A DNA stretch of 64,000 nt from contig NZ_VAJL01000001.1 of the NCBI RefSeq assembly GCF_006175945.1, positions 992,001-1,056,000 on the forward strand. The letters are read 5' to 3'. How positions within the stretch are numbered: position 1 is the stretch's first letter; every line of letters starts with the position of its first letter. The DNA is from Chryseobacterium mulctrae (lineage in GTDB: Bacteria > Bacteroidota > Bacteroidia > Flavobacteriales > Weeksellaceae). This document shows, in pieces, positions 5,374-34,803 of this stretch. The notes below the pieces were generated by a model. The model ran no database searches. It worked only from the letters and a program-made list of their open reading frames with translations, and was not told the DNA's origin. A program made the position numbers and the translations under genes.

Positions 5374-6396
5374 TTATGACTCTTCATTTGTTGTATTTTG
5401 AGCATTATAATTTGAATGAGCAATTCTAATACTTTTTGCAATTCTCTGTTTTAGCTTTCTCGGGCCTAAAACCGTTAAAAACTCTCCCATTCCCAAGATC
5501 ATTCGTTCCAGTTCAAAGTTGAGCTGTACACAAATTTTAAAAGTCGTTCCGTTTTCATTTTCTTTAATAATTTCCTGAGAATGATGAAATGGCTTGGTTT
5601 TAACGTAAGGTGCATGTTCTGAATTAACAAAAAATACAACATTTTGAGGTCGCTGAGTTTCTGAAACAGTTGCTCCAATCACTTCCCCGAAATAGCGGTC
5701 TGCATCAAAATCTTTATCGATATATTCCGTTTCATGGTCTGTTTCAATGGTTATCATTCGGTCTAAAGCCAAATTGTAAATCGCCTTTTTGTGCCAACAG
5801 ATCAAAAACCAACGGTTGTTATATTCTTTCAGTAATTGAGGATGAACCGTCAAAAAATTCTCTTCTCTTGCCTTAAAACTTTTATAACAAATCTTTAAAA
5901 CCTTTTTATTTAAAATACTTTCATACAAAACATCAATATGCTCCAAGCCTTTCAATTGCTCATTTTTATCTAAATGAATGATCGATTTCTGGCTGGTAGA
6001 ATGGATAGAATCTTCCAACTTCTGAATCACACCATTCATTTCCTTGAACATCGAAAAATCTTTGAACTGCTTTAAGATCTGTATCGCATTATTCATCGCT
6101 TTCAGATCATTTTCGTTCACTGAAATCTGATGAATACTGTAATCTGGGTCGCTGTAACGGTAATATTTTTTTTCAAAAACTTCAATTGGTGCTTCATATC
6201 CAAACTTTTCGCTTCGCATATTCTGCAAATCAAGTTGTACCGTACGTTTGCTGACAAAAGATTCTTTTCCTTCAAATTCAAAAAGCGCTTCGGAGCATTC
6301 GTCGATCAAATCTTCCAAAGTGTATTTTTTGTACTTATTCTTCAAGCATTTGTCTAAAGTTTTGTAGCGGATTAAAGCGTTTTTGTTAGATGACAT
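5374..6396 (-). CDS. WYL-domain transcriptional regulator
   Basis: 340 residues. An N-terminal winged-helix region (about 1-75, with RTVQLDLQNMRS as recognition-helix-like) precedes a helical linker and a WYL domain near residues 150-260. The usual W-Y-L core is seen as NNRWFLICWHKKAIYNLALDRM. A C-terminal WCX-like extension ends the protein. WYL proteins bind nucleotides or single-stranded nucleic acid and often control DNA-repair, RNA-repair or defence genes. The gene lies about 1.1 kb from the rtcB promoter, which makes it a candidate regulator of the palindrome there, but this link is only inferred from position. Confidence 0.88.
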   Translation of the reverse strand: MSSNKNALIRYKTLDKCLKNKYKKYTLEDLIDECSEALFEFEGKESFVSKRTVQLDLQNMRSEKFGYEAPIEVFEKKYYRYSDPDYSIHQISVNENDLKAMNNAIQILKQFKDFSMFKEMNGVIQKLEDSIHSTSQKSIIHLDKNEQLKGLEHIDVLYESILNKKVLKICYKSFKAREENFLTVHPQLLKEYNNRWFLICWHKKAIYNLALDRMITIETDHETEYIDKDFDADRYFGEVIGATVSETQRPQNVVFFVNSEHAPYVKTKPFHHSQEIIKENENGTTFKICVQLNFELERMILGMGEFLTVLGPRKLKQRIAKSIRIAHSNYNAQNTTNEES

Positions 6397-7412: not shown

Positions 7413-7452
7413 AACACAATTTTTTTCAAAAATAATTAAAAATATCATTACT

Positions 7453-7487
7453 GCGCAAAAAGATTGCACACTTATGTTTTTACTTTG
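7453..7487 (+). promoter_or_regulatory. Palindromic operator plus promoter of the rtcB unit
   Basis: GCGCAA-AAAGA-TTGCAC (7453-7469) is an imperfect palindrome, followed 12 bp later by TACTTTG (7481-7487), a Bacteroidetes-type -7 element (TAnnTTTG). The same module with identical spacing precedes the first rlaP gene (14074-14108), where the palindrome is perfect. The 12-bp spacing and the shared TACTTTGCAT strongly suggest one regulator and one promoter type for both units. Confidence 0.75.
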
Positions 7488-7501: not shown

Positions 7502-9040
<1,539 letters not shown>

Positions 9041-9064: not shown

Positions 9065-9174
9065 GGAACAGTAGCTCAGATGGTAGAGCAACAGGATTAC
9101 TTTTCGCTTACGGCAAAGAAAGTTCCTATGAATTAAGGTTGTTGGTCGCAGGTTCGAGCCCTGCCTGTTCCTCA
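9065..9174 (+). ncRNA. tRNA-like RNA with hairpin insertion in the anticodon arm
   Basis: A tRNA frame is evident: acceptor stem GGAACAG (9065-9071) with CTGTTCC (9165-9171), D arm GCTC-AGATGGTA-GAGC (9074-9089), and T arm GCAGG-TTCGAGC-CCTGC (9148-9164) abutting the acceptor stem. Between the D and T arms are 58 nt instead of about 23. This stretch contains a hairpin in place of a normal anticodon arm: AGGA/TCCT (9093-9096 with 9124-9127), ACTTT/AAAGT (9099-9103 with 9119-9123) and GC/GC around TTACG. A weak outer helix (ACAG with TTGT, 9091-9094/9139-9142) is an alternative. The 3' end reads TCA instead of CCA. The insertion includes GGCAAAGAAAGTTCCTAT (9112-9129), repeated exactly at 9232-9249. 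It lies 24 bp after rtcB on the same strand. Possible roles are an intron-bearing tRNA, or a decoy or sensor substrate of the RtcB system. It is not a normal elongator tRNA. Confidence 0.75.
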
Positions 9175-9231
9175 AAATATTGAAAATGTTTATATTCAAC
9201 AATTAATCATTTTCATTTATTAAAAAATTAA

Positions 9232-9400
9232 GGCAAAGAAAGTTCCTATTGATTTCCCACATTTACTTTCCGCCTTTTTACAAATTACGAGGCAAAGGGA
9301 GTTCCTATATTTGGATAATTACTCCCCGCCTTTTATAAAACTATAGGTAAAAGGAGTTCCTATATATTTCATTAAAAGAACTACTCCTCACTTATTTTTT
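9232..9400 (+). promoter_or_regulatory. Three tandem terminator-like hairpins sharing a TTCCTAT motif
   Basis: Three units start at 9232, 9291 and 9346, each beginning GGYAAA-RR-AGTTCCTAT. Each pairs with a downstream strand: GGC/AAAGT with ACTTT/GCC (9265-9274), GGC/GGGAGT with ACTCCC/GCC (9321-9330), and AGGT/GGAGT with ACTCC/ACTT (9383-9393). Stems differ in sequence but keep pairing, which is compensatory change. Each stem is followed by a T-run, as in intrinsic terminators, and TTCCTAT stays in the 5' side of the loop. Strands of neighbouring units can also pair with each other, so alternative folds exist. The array fills the leader of the gene at 9415. The first unit is identical over 18 nt to the insertion in the upstream tRNA-like RNA. 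Confidence 0.75.
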
Positions 9401-9414
9401 TAAAATTAAAAACA

Positions 9415-11166
9415 ATGAAAACATTAAAATTATTCAACGCTGTATTGGCAAGAAAATCTAATGAAAAGCCATTTATTTCAGATGAAGGTTTTATCATTGA
9501 GTCTGATGCACTTTGGGCTAAAAAAGAAATTATTTCTTATTATTCAAAAGAAAAACTAAATGGAAATGATTTAAACAAAACCTTTCATAAATCGTGGCAG
9601 AAAATTAAAGAAAGCTCTAGAATTGAATTATTAATCGAACAAATCAATCATTATATTTCAACGTATGGAAGTGATTTTCAAAATGAAATTTATATTCCTA
9701 AAGAAGTGTTGAATGTTCCTGATTTGAAGTTAACTTTTAAAGTAATTAAAGCCTATACTCAAGAAGAAATGCAGGAAAAATGTCTTTCTCTTTTGAAATC
9801 AGGTATTGCTTTGAAAGAAGAAACAATTGATGATTTGCTTTATATTTTGCATACCGAACTGGAATATGATTTTACAGGAAAAGAAAATATCCGAAACAAA
9901 GAAGCGGTGATAAAAATTGCCGACCGATACGATATTTATCCTGAAAATCCCGTTGAATTTTTCCGTTATGTAATTTATAAAACAACCCGAACAACGCTTT
10001 TAATCAAAAGCAATGACTTAATAGATGATATCAAGAAAAGTAAATTTAATCCAACTTATCTGTTTGAAAACTTCGGGTTGGAAAAAATGGCAGAGATCTT
10101 TAACCGATTCAAACCTTTGTTTTTAGCTTATAAAAACAGAGCACCAAAAACGATTAATAAAATTTCAAAACTGTCAAAAGTTTACCATCAACCATTAATC
10201 TCAAATCCTTTGAATAATGCTACAAATATTTTGCTGGAAAACAGTGATTTACATTGGCTGGAAAATGCTACGCCTTTTGCTTTGTTTAAAGCTTTATCGG
10301 CTTGTTATTCCAGAATATATGGTCAGAATACTTTTGTATACAGAATAAGAAACGGAAAATCTTGGACAAAAAGAGGAACTGCTACTTCTGTGAATGAATT
10401 AAACTATGATTTTATCTTAAATTATTTAAAATCAAAATATAATCTTTCTGAAAAGAAATTCTATTTCCCTAAAGATGTCGCATTTGGTTTACCTACTTCT
10501 GAGAAAATGTTTGTTGGAAATATTCCGACCGGAACGAGATTTTATGGAGAAAGACTGGCTGTCGGAATTTACTGGGAAGATGCTTGGGGAGCAAATGACC
10601 TTGACCTTTCCGGATTGAATATTGCCGGAAAAATCGGGTGGAATGCAGCTTATAATCAAGATAATGGGCAGTTGATGTATTCCGGAGATATGACTTCTGC
10701 TCCAAATGGTGCTGTAGAATATCTTTATGCCAACAAATATTTAAATACTCTAACGCTTGTAATGAATAGTGTTTTCTCGGGAGATGCTAATTGTGGTTAT
10801 AAAATCGTTATCGGAAAAGGAGATGATATTTCTTACGATTATATGATGAATCCTAACAATCTTTTTGCGGAAGCTAAGTGTAATTCGGTTCAAAAACAAA
10901 CGATTTTAGGTATGCTACTTCCAAAAGATGGAAAACAATGTTTCGTCTTATTGAATTTCGGAGCTGGAAACTCTCATGTTTCAGGAACTTCCGAAGTTTC
11001 TACAATGGCGACGAATGCACTGTATCAGCAATGGTATGAATTGATTTCTTTCAATCATTTGATAGAAAAACTGGGCGCAATCATCACTTCAGAAAAAGAA
11101 GAAGCAGACTTTGATTTCTCTTTAGAAACCTTGGAAAAAGATAGTTTTACCAAAATTTTCAAATAA
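9415..11166 (+). CDS. RtcB-linked protein of unknown function, 583 aa
   Basis: Not recognised as a whole. Residues 1 to about 340 are alpha-helical and charged (e.g. LLIEQINHYISTYGSDF, EEMQEKCLSLLKSGI), loosely like the helical repeats of RNA-binding TROVE/Ro60 proteins, but no von Willebrand A metal-site motif (DxSxS) is present. The C-terminal part, from about residue 365, looks like a beta-sandwich: GIYWEDAWGANDLDLSGLNI (D395, D397), KIGWNAAY and YSGDMTSAPNGAVEYLY. The D-L-D-L-S plus S-G-D-M-T pattern recalls calcium-binding TerD-type domains, at low confidence. No signal peptide is visible, so it is probably cytoplasmic. The start follows an A-rich leader directly after the three-hairpin array. 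Its position behind rtcB and the tRNA-like RNA suggests a role in the same RNA-damage response, perhaps binding the tRNA-like RNA. Confidence 0.7.
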   Translation: MKTLKLFNAVLARKSNEKPFISDEGFIIESDALWAKKEIISYYSKEKLNGNDLNKTFHKSWQKIKESSRIELLIEQINHYISTYGSDFQNEIYIPKEVLNVPDLKLTFKVIKAYTQEEMQEKCLSLLKSGIALKEETIDDLLYILHTELEYDFTGKENIRNKEAVIKIADRYDIYPENPVEFFRYVIYKTTRTTLLIKSNDLIDDIKKSKFNPTYLFENFGLEKMAEIFNRFKPLFLAYKNRAPKTINKISKLSKVYHQPLISNPLNNATNILLENSDLHWLENATPFALFKALSACYSRIYGQNTFVYRIRNGKSWTKRGTATSVNELNYDFILNYLKSKYNLSEKKFYFPKDVAFGLPTSEKMFVGNIPTGTRFYGERLAVGIYWEDAWGANDLDLSGLNIAGKIGWNAAYNQDNGQLMYSGDMTSAPNGAVEYLYANKYLNTLTLVMNSVFSGDANCGYKIVIGKGDDISYDYMMNPNNLFAEAKCNSVQKQTILGMLLPKDGKQCFVLLNFGAGNSHVSGTSEVSTMATNALYQQWYELISFNHLIEKLGAIITSEKEEADFDFSLETLEKDSFTKIFK

Positions 11167-12728: not shown

Positions 12729-14876
<2,148 letters not shown>

Positions 14877-14893
14877 GAAAAAATATAAACTGC

Positions 14894-15625
14894 ATGAAAA
14901 ATATAATAGCTCTATCTCCAATGTACACGGAAGACAGCAATAACCTGAAAAAAGCATCGCTCAATTCACCATACGAATTGAACCGTTTTAATGCAAAATG
15001 GAACGTTCCTGAAGAATTTCGAGCAGATGTGATTGCAGTATATGGCGAAGATATTTATGCAGAAATTGTTGCTGAACAATGTAATTTAACGTTAACAAAG
15101 CCTGATGATAATTGGCTTTCAAAGATTTCGGAAGAATTTATCAAACGTAAAATTTCTTACGGGCAATTGAAGGATTTTGTACATGAAGAAAATATTTTCA
15201 TTAAATGTTCTGATTTTAAAAGTTTCAAAGCCGGAGTTTTCGATAAAGTCACCAATATCAAAGGTTTTGATTCTTTAGATTTAGACATTACCGTTTTTAC
15301 TTCACAAGTTGTGGAATGGGAACTTGAAGTAAGATGTTTTGTTCTAAACAATGAAATAAAAACTTATTCTTCTTATTGGCGAAATAATGCTTTTGACACC
15401 AACCTGCTTTCTGAAACGGAACAAAAAGATTTATTTGAGTTTTTCAAAAATTTCATTCAACAATATTCTGAAACACTACCCAAAGCAATTGTTTTAGATT
15501 TTGGAACAATCAAAGGAAAAGGCTGGGCTCTGATTGAAGCAAATCCGGCTTGGTGTTCTGGTTTGTATGCTTGTGACGCAGAGAAGGCTTTGGAAGTAAT
15601 TGTTGAGAGTTGTGTGAAAAATTAA
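14894..15625 (+). CDS. R2K-clade ATP-grasp domain protein (DUF4343-like)
   Basis: 243 residues. A divergent ATP-grasp pattern is visible: a Lys in NIFIKCSDFKSFKAG (about 101-113), E-L-E-V-R in VEWELEVRCFVL (about 140-151), and the metal-binding end AIVLDFGTIKGKGWALIEANPAWCSGLY with D202, E215 and N217. This matches the R2K family-3 type (formerly DUF4343), predicted to modify proteins or RNA-linked targets by forming an amide or similar bond; the substrate is unknown. It is probably co-transcribed with the preceding rlaP gene, and a terminator follows 16 bp after the stop. Confidence 0.72.
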   Translation: MKNIIALSPMYTEDSNNLKKASLNSPYELNRFNAKWNVPEEFRADVIAVYGEDIYAEIVAEQCNLTLTKPDDNWLSKISEEFIKRKISYGQLKDFVHEENIFIKCSDFKSFKAGVFDKVTNIKGFDSLDLDITVFTSQVVEWELEVRCFVLNNEIKTYSSYWRNNAFDTNLLSETEQKDLFEFFKNFIQQYSETLPKAIVLDFGTIKGKGWALIEANPAWCSGLYACDAEKALEVIVESCVKN

Positions 15626-17061: not shown

Positions 17062-18117
17062 ATGACCATCCAAGACTTAAAATCCCGCAACCTCATCCTC
17101 TTCCAATCCATCTCCGGAAGCCGCTCTTTCGGACTCGCTACGGAAAACTCAGATACAGATATTCGGGGAGTGTATTATTTACCGAAAGAAGATTTTTTTG
17201 GTTTAAACTATATTCCTCAGATTTCTAATGAGACGAATGATATTACGTATTATGAGATTGGAAGATTTGTAGAATTATTGCAGAAAAACAATCCGAATAT
17301 TCTGGAAATCTTGGTAAGTCCGGAAGATTGTATTCAACATAAAAACCCGTTGATGGATTTACTGAAGCCTGAAGATTTTCTTTCCAAATTATGCAAAGAT
17401 ACTTTTGCAGGATATGCGATTTCACAAATCAAAAAAGCAAAAGGACTCAACAAAAAGATATTGAATCCGATTGATAAAGAAAGAAAATCGATTCTTGATT
17501 TCTGTTATATTTTAGAAAATAACAGCTCTGTTCCGTTGAAAAAATGGTTGCAAAAAAGTGGTTTAATTCAGGAAAAATGTGGATTAGTCAACATCGACAA
17601 TACCAAAGGAATGTTTGCGCTTTTCTACGATGAATCAGGAGATTTAAACTACAAAGGAATTTTTCAAAATGAAGAAGCCAATCAGGTTTCCGTTTCATCC
17701 GTTCCGAAAGGTGAACGATCTTTGGCGTTTATGTTTTGTAATCTCGACGCCTACTCTACTTATTGCAAAGATTACCGTGACTATTGGAAGTGGGTTTCAG
17801 AGAGAAATGAAGACCGTTATAATGTCAATCAAAATCATGGACAAAATTACGACAGCAAAAATATGATGCACACTATTCGGTTATTGCAGTCTTGTGAACA
17901 GATTTTCAAAACCGGTTCGTTACAAATTCGGGTAGAAAACCGGGACGAATTGTTAGACATCAAAGCCGGAAACTGGTCGTATAAAAATGTAATGAATAAA
18001 GCTGAAGTACTGATTAAATCAATCGAACATCATCATTCAAAGTCTAATCTTCCGGACACACCGGATTTGGAAAAGACAACCAGAATTTTAGTAGAAATAA
18101 GAAATTCTTTATACTGA
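17062..18117 (+). CDS. Second RlaP-type nucleotidyltransferase
   Basis: 351 residues, about 100 longer than the first copy. The catalytic motif FQSISGSRSFGLATENSDTDIRGVYYLP has GS at 19-20 and metal ligands D31 and D33. The helical C-terminal part has KMMHTIRLLQSCEQIFKTGSLQIRVENRDELLDIKAGNWSYK in its last third, typical of larger RlaP/COG3541-like members. The two copies are clearly divergent and not a recent duplication. It ends the operon, and a strong bidirectional terminator follows. It probably acts on RNA ends in the same pathway as the gene at 14127. Confidence 0.8.
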   Translation: MTIQDLKSRNLILFQSISGSRSFGLATENSDTDIRGVYYLPKEDFFGLNYIPQISNETNDITYYEIGRFVELLQKNNPNILEILVSPEDCIQHKNPLMDLLKPEDFLSKLCKDTFAGYAISQIKKAKGLNKKILNPIDKERKSILDFCYILENNSSVPLKKWLQKSGLIQEKCGLVNIDNTKGMFALFYDESGDLNYKGIFQNEEANQVSVSSVPKGERSLAFMFCNLDAYSTYCKDYRDYWKWVSERNEDRYNVNQNHGQNYDSKNMMHTIRLLQSCEQIFKTGSLQIRVENRDELLDIKAGNWSYKNVMNKAEVLIKSIEHHHSKSNLPDTPDLEKTTRILVEIRNSLY

Positions 18118-26991: not shown

Positions 26992-27261
26992 TTATTTTCT
27001 TAATCCTAGTTCAGCGATAATCGCTCTGTATCTTGTAATATCTTTTTTCTTAAGATAATCCAATAAACTTTTTCTCTTACCTACTAATTTCACCAAAGAT
27101 CTTTCAGTGTTGAAATCGTGACGATTTGCCTTCAAGTGCTGAGATAAGTGGTTAATTCTGAACGTGAAAAGAGCTACTTGTCCTTCAGCTGTTCCTGTGT
27201 CTTGTGCAGATTTACCGTGCTTTGCGAAAATTTCTGCTTTTTTTTCTGTTGTTAAGTACAT
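26992..27261 (-). CDS. rpsO: 30S ribosomal protein S15
   Basis: 89 residues, standard length, with the family signature TAEGQVALFTFRINHLSQHLKANRHDFNTERSLVKLVGKRKSLLDYLKK and the RYRAIIAELGLRK end. It binds 16S rRNA helix 22 early in 30S assembly. In many bacteria rpsO is directly followed by pnp; here a PagL-like gene and a terminator intervene, so the ancestral neighbourhood is kept but transcription is probably split. Confidence 0.98.
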   Translation of the reverse strand: MYLTTEKKAEIFAKHGKSAQDTGTAEGQVALFTFRINHLSQHLKANRHDFNTERSLVKLVGKRKSLLDYLKKKDITRYRAIIAELGLRK

Positions 27262-27547
27262 TCCAATATTGTTTAATGATTATTATGTAACGGGTGCAAA
27301 AGTACGACTATTTTTTTAATCACCAAAACACTAATTAAAATTAGAAACAAAACGCTCATTAAAAATCTCCATATTATTTATAAATAATACATTATCAGTA
27401 TTTTTTAATAATTATTTAAGGAAACCATCAGACTGTGGAGACATTATTGATTTCATATATTAAAATTGATAGAAAAATATGTTAACAAATTCTTAAAAAA
27501 ATTATGCCATCCCATTAAAAGACAGTAATTTTACAGCCGACAAAAAG

Positions 27548-33198: not shown

Positions 33199-33280
33199 GC
33201 CCAGGTGGCGGAATTGGTAGACGCGCTGGTCTCAAACACCAGTTCTTAGGAGTACCGGTTCGATCCCGGTCCTGGGTACA
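33199..33280 (+). tRNA. tRNA-Leu (anticodon CAA)
   Basis: Acceptor stem GCCCAGG (33199-33205) with CCTGGGT (33271-33277); anticodon stem CTGGT/ACCAG around CTCAAAC gives anticodon CAA, reading UUG. There is an extended variable region (TTCTTAGGAGTA) of class II type, though short, and a T arm CCGG-TTCGATC-CCGG. The discriminator is A and no CCA is encoded (ACA). The gene is an integration site: the recombinase on the opposite strand ends inside it. Confidence 0.93.
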
Positions 33281-34803
33281 AGACCGGAAAGAGGTGATAA
33301 TTCACTATTTTTCCGGTTTTTTTTAGCTCGTAAATCATTGTTAATCTGATAGATATAGGACAACAAAACGTTAGGTCGCATAGTTCGATAATGATTTTCA
33401 AAAAATTCCAATTTTTCAGGGAATATCGAACTAATTATTTGACGTTTCAATGTGATATCCCCACTACTAAAGACTTTAGCAAGATCTACAACGTTCGATA
33501 ATGCATGGTCAAGTAGTTTCGGAAAATCTATTTTGTTTTTATCTTTTACTTTGGTCAGGTTGCTTTCTAACTTTTCAATTTTGTCCTTGCAATCAGTCTT
33601 AATTTCCAAGTATTCCTCATTATCAATGACATCTTCCAACAGTTTGTTTCTTGCCAACTTTAACCTGTTATTCAGTCCATCAATTTCAAGTAATACCTTT
33701 TTTCTTTGATGTTGAGGATTATCGATAAACTTCTCAAAATTGTGTTTCAAGACCTTTCTCAAGTATTTTTTGATGGACTCCCTCATTTCTAAAGCTTCCA
33801 GTACTTCCAAGAATTTATTATTGATAATTTCTGCTTTATAACGATATCCGCATGGTGACTGACAATGGTAGTAATAATATTTCTTAGAGTGTCCTGTAGA
33901 TGCACTACCGGTTATTAAATGACCACATTCCGGACAGATTAGAAATCCTCTCAGGGGAAGATTATCGTCAGATAATATTTTTACATTGGGTCTTGCAAGA
34001 TTTGCATTGCCATCCATTATATTTTGGACTTTTTCGAATAATTCCTCACTGATCAAAGGTTCATGAATACTTGGAACAAAATGAGCCTCCTCGTCATTGT
34101 ATTGTTCTACATAAATTTTTCCGCAATATGCAGTATTCCTTAAGCCGGCAAGAAAAGCACTGACTTTTACAGTTTTCCCTTCCCGTTTGTTCATCATATC
34201 CATGATCTGGCTGGCTGAGTAAACGCCTTTCGCCATTTCATTAAATGCCCATTTCATATTGGAAGCTTCTGGTTCTTTTTGAGTGACATACTTCTTCCCG
34301 TTCTCCGTGATCTTATTGACATATCCATAAGGCGCCCTTCCCATCAACCTTCCTTCTTTTCTTGCACGACGCATTCCATAGTAGGTATTCAGGGCACGTC
34401 TGTCGTTTTCAACTTCCGGTGCAGCAAGATAGATTGCCAGCATCATCTTATTTTCGGGAATGGAAAGATCCAGGGGTTGTTCAATGGCTTGCGGTTCCAC
34501 ATTAAGCTTTTTGAGGATATTGATCATTTGATAGGCATCGCCGGCGTTTCTGCTAAAACGATCCCATTTTGTAAACAACAATAAATTGGTTCTTGAACTC
34601 TTTCTCTTAAGTGTATCTAGCAGTTTGATCCATTCAGGCCTGTTAAAGGTCTTGGCTGAATAATCTTCATAAATGACTTGTCCCACTACGATACTATTAT
34701 TTTCACAGTAGCGTCTCAGTCTTTCTTCCTGATCTCTTTGTGAATACCCTTTATCTGCCTGCTCATCAGTTGAAACACGAATATATAAATCTGCTTTTTT
34801 CAT
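33232..34803 (-). CDS. Large serine recombinase (integrase) at tRNA-Leu
   Basis: 523 residues. The catalytic N-terminal domain has YIRVSTDEQADKGYSQRDQEERL with the nucleophile Ser, and FTKWDRFSRNAGDAYQMI. A recombinase domain follows (RKEGRLMGRAPYGYVNK), then a zinc ribbon (CPECGHLITGSAS...YYYYHCQSPCGYRY) and a coiled-coil (about 365-440). These enzymes integrate and excise elements between short attP and attB sites. The last about 15 residues (LVPRTGIEPVLLRTGV) are read from the antisense of tRNA-Leu, and the TGA stop falls in the anticodon loop. This indicates that the att core lies in the tRNA gene and the element end supplies the recombinase C-terminus. Confidence 0.93.
   Translation of the reverse strand: MKKADLYIRVSTDEQADKGYSQRDQEERLRRYCENNSIVVGQVIYEDYSAKTFNRPEWIKLLDTLKRKSSRTNLLLFTKWDRFSRNAGDAYQMINILKKLNVEPQAIEQPLDLSIPENKMMLAIYLAAPEVENDRRALNTYYGMRRARKEGRLMGRAPYGYVNKITENGKKYVTQKEPEASNMKWAFNEMAKGVYSASQIMDMMNKREGKTVKVSAFLAGLRNTAYCGKIYVEQYNDEEAHFVPSIHEPLISEELFEKVQNIMDGNANLARPNVKILSDDNLPLRGFLICPECGHLITGSASTGHSKKYYYYHCQSPCGYRYKAEIINNKFLEVLEALEMRESIKKYLRKVLKHNFEKFIDNPQHQRKKVLLEIDGLNNRLKLARNKLLEDVIDNEEYLEIKTDCKDKIEKLESNLTKVKDKNKIDFPKLLDHALSNVVDLAKVFSSGDITLKRQIISSIFPEKLEFFENHYRTMRPNVLLSYIYQINNDLRAKKNRKNSELSPLSGLVPRTGIEPVLLRTGV

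Follow-up and report, generated by a model that had tools for sequence, protein, structure and literature searches.

The window analysed here, a 64,000-nt stretch of the genome of Chryseobacterium mulctrae, carries an RNA ligase gene followed by a tRNA-like RNA and by a gene, TerD583, whose leader contains three hairpins. The features are listed below, with positions counted from the first letter of the window.

5374..6396, minus strand: WYL/WCX transcription regulator (domain match)
7452..7470, plus strand: probable operator, palindrome TRCGCA-N7-TGCGYA with one half-site altered (the search pattern itself does not match)
7481-7487, plus strand: promoter-like element TACTTTG beside the probable operator
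7655..9040, plus strand: rtcB RNA ligase gene (PF01139, 125 bits), likely start at 7655
9065..9174, plus strand: tRNA-like RNA (RF00005 score, stem inspection and covariation)
9065-9071/9165-9171, plus strand: its acceptor stem, 7/7 pairs
9074-9089, plus strand: its D arm (D stem 9074-9077/9086-9089), 4/4 pairs
9091-9094/9139-9142, plus strand: its short anticodon stem ACAG/UUGU
9099..9129, plus strand: two-strand motif within the RNA, with helix 9099-9103/9119-9123, GC/GC at 9106-9107/9113-9114, A-rich side 9115-9118 and UCCUAU at 9124-9129 facing the tRNA body
9148-9164, plus strand: its T arm (T stem 9148-9152/9160-9164), 5/5 pairs
9172, plus strand: its 3' end, U73 followed by CA
9230..9276, plus strand: leader hairpin 1, motif with UUCCUAU in the apical loop; fold z -3.66 (9228-9282); counterparts in relatives
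9289..9332, plus strand: leader hairpin 2, motif copy; fold z -3.58 (9288-9338); counterparts in relatives
9343..9395, plus strand: leader hairpin 3, motif copy ending 19 nt 5' of the TerD583 ATG; counterparts in relatives
9415..11166, plus strand: TerD583, 583-aa protein with N-terminal helices and a predicted C-terminal TerD-like fold (377-532); no family match
13995..14876, plus strand: RlaP-type RNA-repair nucleotidyltransferase (PF10127)
14894..15625, plus strand: R2K-clade ATP-grasp protein
17062..18117, plus strand: second RlaP-domain protein

The sequence-only reading had described an RNA with perfect acceptor, D and T arms, 58 nt between the D and T stems, no credible anticodon and a TCA 3' end, beginning 24 nt after the rtcB stop (9040), and had proposed scoring it with a covariance model. 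These coordinates hold, as do all pairs of the three arms, and the RF00005 tRNA covariance model matches the RNA at 48.8 bits (gathering 29, E 2.2e-7 for the whole window). The RF00005 alignment places a 44-nt insert in the anticodon region. The 58-nt stretch comprises the ACAG/UUGU stem and an ACUUU/AAAGU helix whose far end is closed by GC/GC, with an A-rich side and with UCCUAU toward the tRNA body. A 7-nt anticodon loop with a credible anticodon is absent from the RF00005 alignment, ARAGORN calls no tRNA at 9065-9174, and by eye none of the Chryseobacterium copies has a usable anticodon. Two candidate assignments were dropped: a group I intron (the insert has 44 nt and no group I Rfam match) and an alanine-type G3:U70 identity (G-U occurs at that pair in just 9 of the 30 sequences described below).

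Single-sequence folding gives the RNA an energy no better than that of shuffled sequences (z -1.09), and the conserved fold (-21.9 kcal/mol) differs from the minimum-energy fold (-30.5 kcal/mol). Because folding energies alone fail to show a structure, the proof is comparative. Thirty tRNA-like RNAs picked for diversity, that of the window included, were drawn from the distinct sequences of two overlapping searches (30 and 57). In this set 749 of 750 cells are paired, and pairing falls to 31-45% of cells in slid controls; related species contribute rows that are not independent of one another. Thirteen of the 25 pairs are changed on both sides, compensatory changes occur in five of the six helices, and the covariation score is 0.380 compared with 0.139 in shuffles; further pair types number 28, as many as in the mean of the shuffles, and this measure lends no support. 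Pairing in the acceptor and T stems is partly selected for, because the searches required these pairs. No such selection acted on the motif helix, where one pair is doubly changed and three vary on one side, or on the short anticodon stem, where both pairs are doubly changed.

The 583-aa family was used to scan species genomes; 125 stretches were confirmed, and the best 80 of them were retained. In 57 of these 80 loci a tRNA-like RNA forms all 12 pairs of the acceptor and T stems and has both strands of the motif in full, which bears out the earlier description of a structured motif inserted into an intact tRNA body at an RNA-repair locus. A decayed elongator tRNA with a chance insertion would account for the missing anticodon and for the ARAGORN miss. 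We consider this explanation extremely improbable and take it as refuted by the compensatory changes; conservation in 57 of the best 80 loci speaks against it as well, and the genome holds no parental tRNA beyond matches of 18-22 nt. Neither of the outcomes that would have overturned the sequence-only reading, arms not conserved in relatives or a decayed tRNA, holds. The best non-self match of the RNA in its own genome, of 22 nt, is the first leader hairpin.

The insert motif recurs three times downstream of the RNA (9230-9395), a repetition that does not appear in the sequence-only reading. Its consensus is 5'-GC-ANA(N)-helix-GU-UCCUAU-3' against 5'-AC-helix-(U)C-GC-3'. In the 5' leader of TerD583, the strand GGCAAA-helix-UUCCUAU (GGUAAA in the third copy) is repeated in ordinary hairpins; in the tRNA-like RNA the order of the strands is reversed, which amounts to a circular permutation of one motif. 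The third hairpin alone folds with an energy no better than shuffled (z -0.85, 9338-9402). Pairing of the leader helices was assessed with the 3' strand anchored on the conserved flank, independently of complementarity, in 171 distinct hairpins, after leaving out 6 of 223 occurrences that have no 3' anchor. At four variable positions 643 of 684 cells are Watson-Crick, against a shuffled mean of 398 and maximum of 436, the rows from related species again being not independent.

Motif hairpins lie upstream of TerD583 in 78 of the best 80 of the 125 stretches (three in 51 loci, two in 19 and four in 8). Of the two loci without hairpins, L085 starts at a contig end and L073 is a true miss, with no motif strand in the 1.9 kb upstream of a TerD583 match that begins at residue 86. 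Many leader copies of the motif come without any tRNA part, and the leader loops of Chryseobacterium are short and contain no recognisable tRNA pieces. A T arm is found within a leader hairpin in 15 of the best 80 bacterial loci, usually followed by a small closed stem. By eye, the apical parts of the leader hairpins at -192 and -137 in L106 and L117 look like anticodon arms, with loops CUUUUAA and CUUUGAA.

The protein encoded behind the leader belongs to no Pfam, NCBIfam, PADLOC or PHROGs family, with no Pfam or NCBIfam match up to E 0.1. Scanning members of its family with the threshold relaxed to E 10 yielded nothing beyond weak, scattered matches, all to unrelated families (best 0.0039). 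Structure modelling gives a TerD fold in the C-terminal part; the match comes from a second structure aligner, Foldseek giving no match at E 0.001 or below and the curated TerD sequence models none. Residues 111-300 are mostly modelled with pLDDT > 80 and have no confident fold match. Compared with the TerD tellurite-resistance and stress proteins, TerD583 has no Pfam TerD match and carries a helical N-terminal region fused to the predicted fold. Profile comparison finds no TROVE similarity (the profiles are shallow), and the lack of a Ro60-like match in the second structure aligner excludes nothing.

The sequence-only reading placed its emphasis on the link with rtcB, and the co-occurrence counts shift that emphasis to TerD583. 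Among 99 relatives, TerD583 is present in 40 (a count that includes G012, G021, G033 (inner stop) and G035 (remnant only)) and rtcB in 59, comprising 59 of the 60 genomes of the genus among those 99. A strict search pattern, with the motif strands in the order of the tRNA-like RNA, matches 28 of the 40 genomes with TerD583, none of the 59 without it, and none of the 19 that have rtcB but no TerD583; within rtcB-bearing genomes the association gives a Fisher value of 1e-7, with species not independent. Because the pattern is strict, 28 of 40 is a lower bound, and the other 12 genomes include both variants missed by it (as in L008, L011 and L018) and losses (L013, L014). Based on these counts, the tRNA-like RNA belongs with the TerD583 gene and not with rtcB, and RtcB was dropped as its partner. 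A search for unlinked copies with the strict pattern matched one of 18 genomes, namely L060's own copy; as this search missed the known copies of L104, L106, L117 and L133, it is uninformative for the 13 others.

TerD583 is sporadic: the gene was found in 19 of the 246 genomes scanned from the order, two of these matches being weak and partial, in 7 of 395 from the phylum and in 3 of 299 from another family. Hosts of the module include Chryseobacterium, Epilithonimonas, Flavobacterium, Winogradskyella, Tenacibaculum, Kordia, Bizionia, Pedobacter and Roseivirga. An rtcB match accompanies it in 70 of the best 80 loci, five of these at 28-30% identity and thus another kind of RtcB. A strict copy of the tRNA-like RNA is missing in 23 of the best 80 loci and decayed examples exist; the RNA is accordingly not essential to the module.

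The palindrome TRCGCA-N7-TGCGYA lies upstream in 57 of 79 loci, compared with 1.0 expected from shuffles, and is mostly followed by a TA-TTTG-like element. It stands 5' of rtcB in Chryseobacterium, 5' of the tRNA-like RNA or of the hairpins in most others, and 5' of both places in L057, L059, L061 and L126. A WYL/WCX regulator gene is nearby in the window and in L104, the two loci checked, and we infer that the regulator at 5374..6396 is a candidate reader of the operator. Other features of the window were recorded in passing. A structured-looking element (GCCCGACTTGAACGGAGC ... GGCGG), present in a single copy, occupies 7534-7640, 5' of the likely rtcB start. At 33199-33279 the end of a tRNA-Leu(CAA) overlaps the end of a recombinase-like ORF on the opposite strand (33199-34803), an overlap that makes this a likely integration site. 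An S15-Flavobacteria ribosomal protein leader (RF03161) lies at 27259-27304 on the minus strand.

The closest known system is that of Rsr and YrlA, in which a tRNA-like RNA, its protein and RtcB are encoded in one operon (PMC7790460, PMC8394870). Both systems join a tRNA body with acceptor, D and T arms to a stem and encode it with RtcB. The tRNA-like RNA described here differs in having normal tRNA ends, in the repetition of its motif in the leader of the partner gene and in a partner without detectable TROVE similarity. By analogy the module may work like a Ro/Y particle, yet it is not one by the comparisons made here: the acceptor, D and T arms are present as in YrlA and bacterial Y RNA, the RNA is not among the 10 matches of the YrlA model RF02553 up to E 10, and the adjoining gene has neither a Pfam match nor TROVE profile similarity.

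The genome does have a TROVE (Ro60) gene, about 0.37 Mb from the tRNA-like RNA, and 46 of the 99 relatives have one. A tRNA-like body near rtcB resembles the YrlA setting, and the RNA could on that ground be the Y RNA of the genome's own Ro60/TROVE protein. This is highly unlikely, given the distance between the two, the missing YrlA match, the absence of TROVE from 4 of 40 TerD583 genomes and the fact that two of the eight scanned TROVE loci have a YrlA match of their own nearby, below the gathering score. In the TROVE locus of the same genome (G000:C1:1376440-1377180; L188, L189) a Flavo-1 RNA adjoins, as it does in total at four of the eight scanned TROVE loci. Two genomes (G019:C1 and G022:C4) have a second, weaker match to TROVE, situated within some 6-10 kb of TerD583.

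Five loci from Flavobacteriaceae and Bacteroidia (L060/L051, L104, L106, L117 and L133) carry an intron-like version of the RNA, with an insert of 38-41 nt inside the anticodon stem. When this insert is removed, a perfect stem and a loop YUCAUAA result and ARAGORN calls a tRNA-Met(CAT) with anticodon CAU; in a sixth locus, L123, removal of a 45-nt insert leaves a Leu(CAA). The cut points were chosen by eye to restore the stem, and these ARAGORN calls have no shuffled control. Because the stem letters differ between loci, the anticodon arm in the five CAU loci looks maintained. In the genomes of these five loci, a search with the L117 form gave no further match that exceeds 77% across most of the query. 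The loop YUCAUAA is absent from the Chryseobacterium versions, and the distance from the motif to the presumed joints varies, by eye, from 2 to 7 nt on one side and from 10 to 16 nt on the other.

TerD583 relatives also occur in 86 IMG/VR stretches, of which 80 were kept, on contigs of up to 424 kb that are viral according to the IMG/VR listing. Among the 65 distinct viral loci (those with at least 400 nt upstream), a motif strand lies upstream in 42 and a complete helix in 39, while 23 have no motif strand with the pattern used; 14 further viral stretches with a fixed leader pattern stand outside these counts. Motif density is 1.66 copies per kb upstream; for the same loci, the reverse strand and the DNA downstream have 0.0089 per kb. 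By protein identity, the complete helix is found in 11 of 13 viral loci at 50% or more, 12 of 15 at 35-49% and 16 of 37 below 35%. A viral locus has up to 7 motif copies and a bacterial locus 2-4. Five or more ordinary tRNA genes accompany 28 of the 80 viral loci kept, near-duplicates included, and three or more accompany 8 of the best 80 bacterial loci.

The isolate Synechococcus phages S-CRM01 (34%) and S-CBWM1 (31%) encode a TerD583 relative, annotated as a hypothetical protein, within their tRNA arrays. Motif hairpins precede the gene in both, with a strand that reads GUUCCU(U/G) or similar: S-CRM01 has five candidate motif sites, and S-CBWM1 has one directly 5' of the gene and one inside the tRNA array. 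The gut phage Phass-1 encodes a 28% relative with a hairpin cluster downstream, rather than upstream, of the gene; six motif-strand-like sites, four with a clear matching strand, lie there (L298, 10000-10420). Neither the motif nor the permuted bodies described below are annotated in the stretches of the three phage records that were examined. Phage tRNA arrays with RNA-repair genes have been described (PMC7824862), and the isolate-phage homologues of TerD583 sit in such arrays.

In several viral leaders a permuted tRNA lies between the motif strands: the 3' half, a short linker that closes the acceptor stem, and then the 5' half. In one example (L280) the minimum-energy fold yields a motif helix enclosing a T arm, a closed acceptor stem and a D arm, with the anticodon stem missing. 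A strict scan of the family loci found 25 permuted architectures, of which 6 have a fully complementary motif helix of standard pairs (4 distinct after removal of the duplicates L263=L264 and L279=L237); the two shuffled controls yielded 0 and 4 architectures, none of them with a motif helix. The scan did not require the motif, and most of the other architectures look like neighbouring tRNAs of an array. The second L263 body is in the scan but has no 6-bp helix, and the first L280 body, the second L215 body and those of L218 and S-CRM01 were recognised by eye. The permuted body of S-CRM01 has, by eye, a 9-bp acceptor stem closed by UUCG, and the minimum-energy fold of the element does not reproduce the permuted cloverleaf. 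In the cases looked at, the tRNA part is on the UUCCUAU side of the motif helix, from which it follows that both chain orders can present one shape. The permuted leader copies share with YrlA a topology in which the two ends of the chain lie at the stem (PMC8394870).

Two related observations were made by eye or in passing. In tRNA-array stretches of L123 (~12275) and L124 (~13981), an acceptor stem in permuted order is closed by a 4-5-nt linker and has no UUCCUAU motif; these may represent a further type of permuted tRNA, or arrays that were misread. In L263 (~5936-6030), a motif hairpin seems, by eye, to contain a tRNA-like stretch whose order is normal rather than permuted.

The intron-like and permuted forms raise the possibility that the motif serves as a signal for splicing, much as the bulge-helix-bulge does in archaea. 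Its edges would be cut by an endonuclease, either TerD583 or another protein, RtcB or another ligase would join the ends, mature tRNAs would arise from intron-bearing or permuted precursors, and the leader hairpins would also be cut, for control. The restored stems and tRNA calls in the five CAU loci and in L123, the lack of another close match in the five CAU genomes and the adjacency of RtcB in Chryseobacterium are consistent with this explanation, as is the un-permuting of viral bodies, in which Thr(GGT) is the most frequent ARAGORN call for L263 and L280. Un-permuting 7 of the 27 candidate hairpins gave an ARAGORN call in 5; because each yields several anticodons and there was no control, these identities are suggestive only. 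Against splicing stand the use of chosen or many cut points for these ARAGORN calls, with no shuffled control, the varying joint distances, the Chryseobacterium copies without a usable anticodon, the many leader copies without a tRNA part and the absence of the strict pattern from the 19 rtcB-bearing genomes without TerD583.

In a bulge-helix-bulge, a 4-bp helix at the exon joints is flanked by two 3-nt bulges, one on each strand. An assignment of the motif to this class was rejected, as its conserved elements are on one strand and, by eye, its distances to the joints vary. Intron-bearing or circularly permuted tRNA genes of archaea and algae resemble the present loci in being interrupted or permuted at a conserved helical motif with an RtcB-type ligase nearby (PMC3400036). 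The present loci differ in the placement of the conserved elements on one strand, in the varying joint distances and in the many copies that could not yield a usable tRNA.

We rank splicing below binding because the Chryseobacterium copies have no YUCAUAA loop and the joint distances are inconstant, and we regard it as unlikely. The sequence-only reading had offered an intron-bearing tRNA spliced by RtcB; this fits the five loci that leave a tRNA with a CAU anticodon and does not fit the Chryseobacterium copy. A wider form of the idea, for which we see about the same small chance, is a protein-dependent splicing and rearrangement of tRNAs in bacteria and their phages, in which the motif would mark introns and permutation joints, TerD583 would recognise or cut it, and RtcB-type ligases would join the products. 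Such a system would assemble tRNAs at times when tRNAs are being attacked, and the RNA of Chryseobacterium would be its regulatory descendant.

The neighbouring genes suggest a further role. Genes for RlaP and R2K proteins occur in related islands, as do an RF-1-domain protein encoded next to an RtcB-like gene, a ligase of the Rnl2 type and a nucleotidyltransferase of the poly(A)-polymerase/CCA type; tRNA arrays of 6-18 genes are found there too. In Flavobacteriaceae, arrays of 15-18 ordinary tRNAs lie near the module (L060 4140-5858, L117 4003-5695, L133 1915-4260, and L124); in the L117 island the RF-1-domain protein adjoins the RtcB-like gene, and L133 has the Rnl2-type RNA ligase. These loci look like islands of spare tRNAs and repair genes. 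A decoy for anticodon nucleases and a damage sensor were among the ideas of the sequence-only reading. The tRNA body and the tRNA pieces in leaders could be decoys for tRNA-cutting nucleases of the host or of a rival, whose cutting would alter TerD583 binding and switch the repair genes on. The RtcB, RlaP and R2K genes of the window, the composition of the related islands, the T arms in leader hairpins (15 of the best 80 loci) and the anticodon-arm-like pieces in L106 and L117 (by eye) all fit such a bait or sensor, and nuclease inhibition was suggested for YrlA by Hughes et al. (PMC7790460). In Chryseobacterium, however, the anticodon, the usual target, is missing and the short leader loops offer no recognisable tRNA pieces; in Salmonella, YrlA was not a substrate of the RecA-dependent nuclease (PMC7790460). 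We think it rather improbable that the module serves as bait or sensor.

Taken together, a three-part module of tRNA-like RNA, leader hairpin array and TerD583 is well supported by comparison of sequences: by the structure and covariation of RNA and hairpins, by the genomic link with TerD583 and by the recurrence of hairpins and gene from bacteria to tRNA-rich phages. TerD583 is the likely binding partner of the RNA. We hypothesize, with somewhat more confidence than doubt, that TerD583 binds the motif together with the tRNA body, that the tRNA-like RNA is its stable partner, like a Y RNA without TROVE, and that the leader copies provide feedback control. As stable partner, the RNA would present the acceptor and elbow of a tRNA to RtcB or to other enzymes of tRNA handling or repair; alternatively, it could compete with tRNA-cutting nucleases. 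When in excess over the RNA, TerD583 would occupy the motifs of its own leader, with the last motif directly 5' of the start codon, and its translation would be shut down. In the permuted leader copies the tRNA body would lie on the other side of the same motif helix, both topologies forming one three-dimensional object. Several points count against this binding model: the tRNA-like RNA is lost or degraded at some loci, L073 has no motif strand and neither do 23 of the 65 viral loci with the pattern used, the N-terminal region gives no confident fold match, the leader can be the target of something other than its own protein, and the apparent anticodon arm kept in five relatives is not required by a pure binding site.

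In operators of the thrS type, an mRNA leader mimics the tRNA ligand of the encoded protein. By analogy, the TerD583 leader may mimic the RNA ligand of its own product; the mimic differs from the thrS type in being a motif with or without a tRNA body, present in several copies, some of them circularly permuted.

Judged from the sequences compared, the tRNA-like RNA module is real and conserved, and it is undescribed so far as the literature was searched: no title or abstract start describing the RNA, the motif or TerD583 was found, a weak result as subscription papers were mostly not covered. The RNA, its recurring motif and the TerD583 relatives in tRNA-rich viruses point to an undescribed RNA-protein system. 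If the binding model is right, it would be a second, independent answer to the Ro60/Y RNA idea, with a tRNA-shaped RNA and its own protein in RNA-repair loci, and with a feedback exerted by the motif copies and the permuted mimics of tRNA that the mRNA leader contains. A protein family without known function would be tied to phage tRNA arrays and bacterial RNA repair, and with the sequenced, isolated phage S-CRM01 available as a test case, the role of tRNA-like RNAs beside RtcB would become testable.
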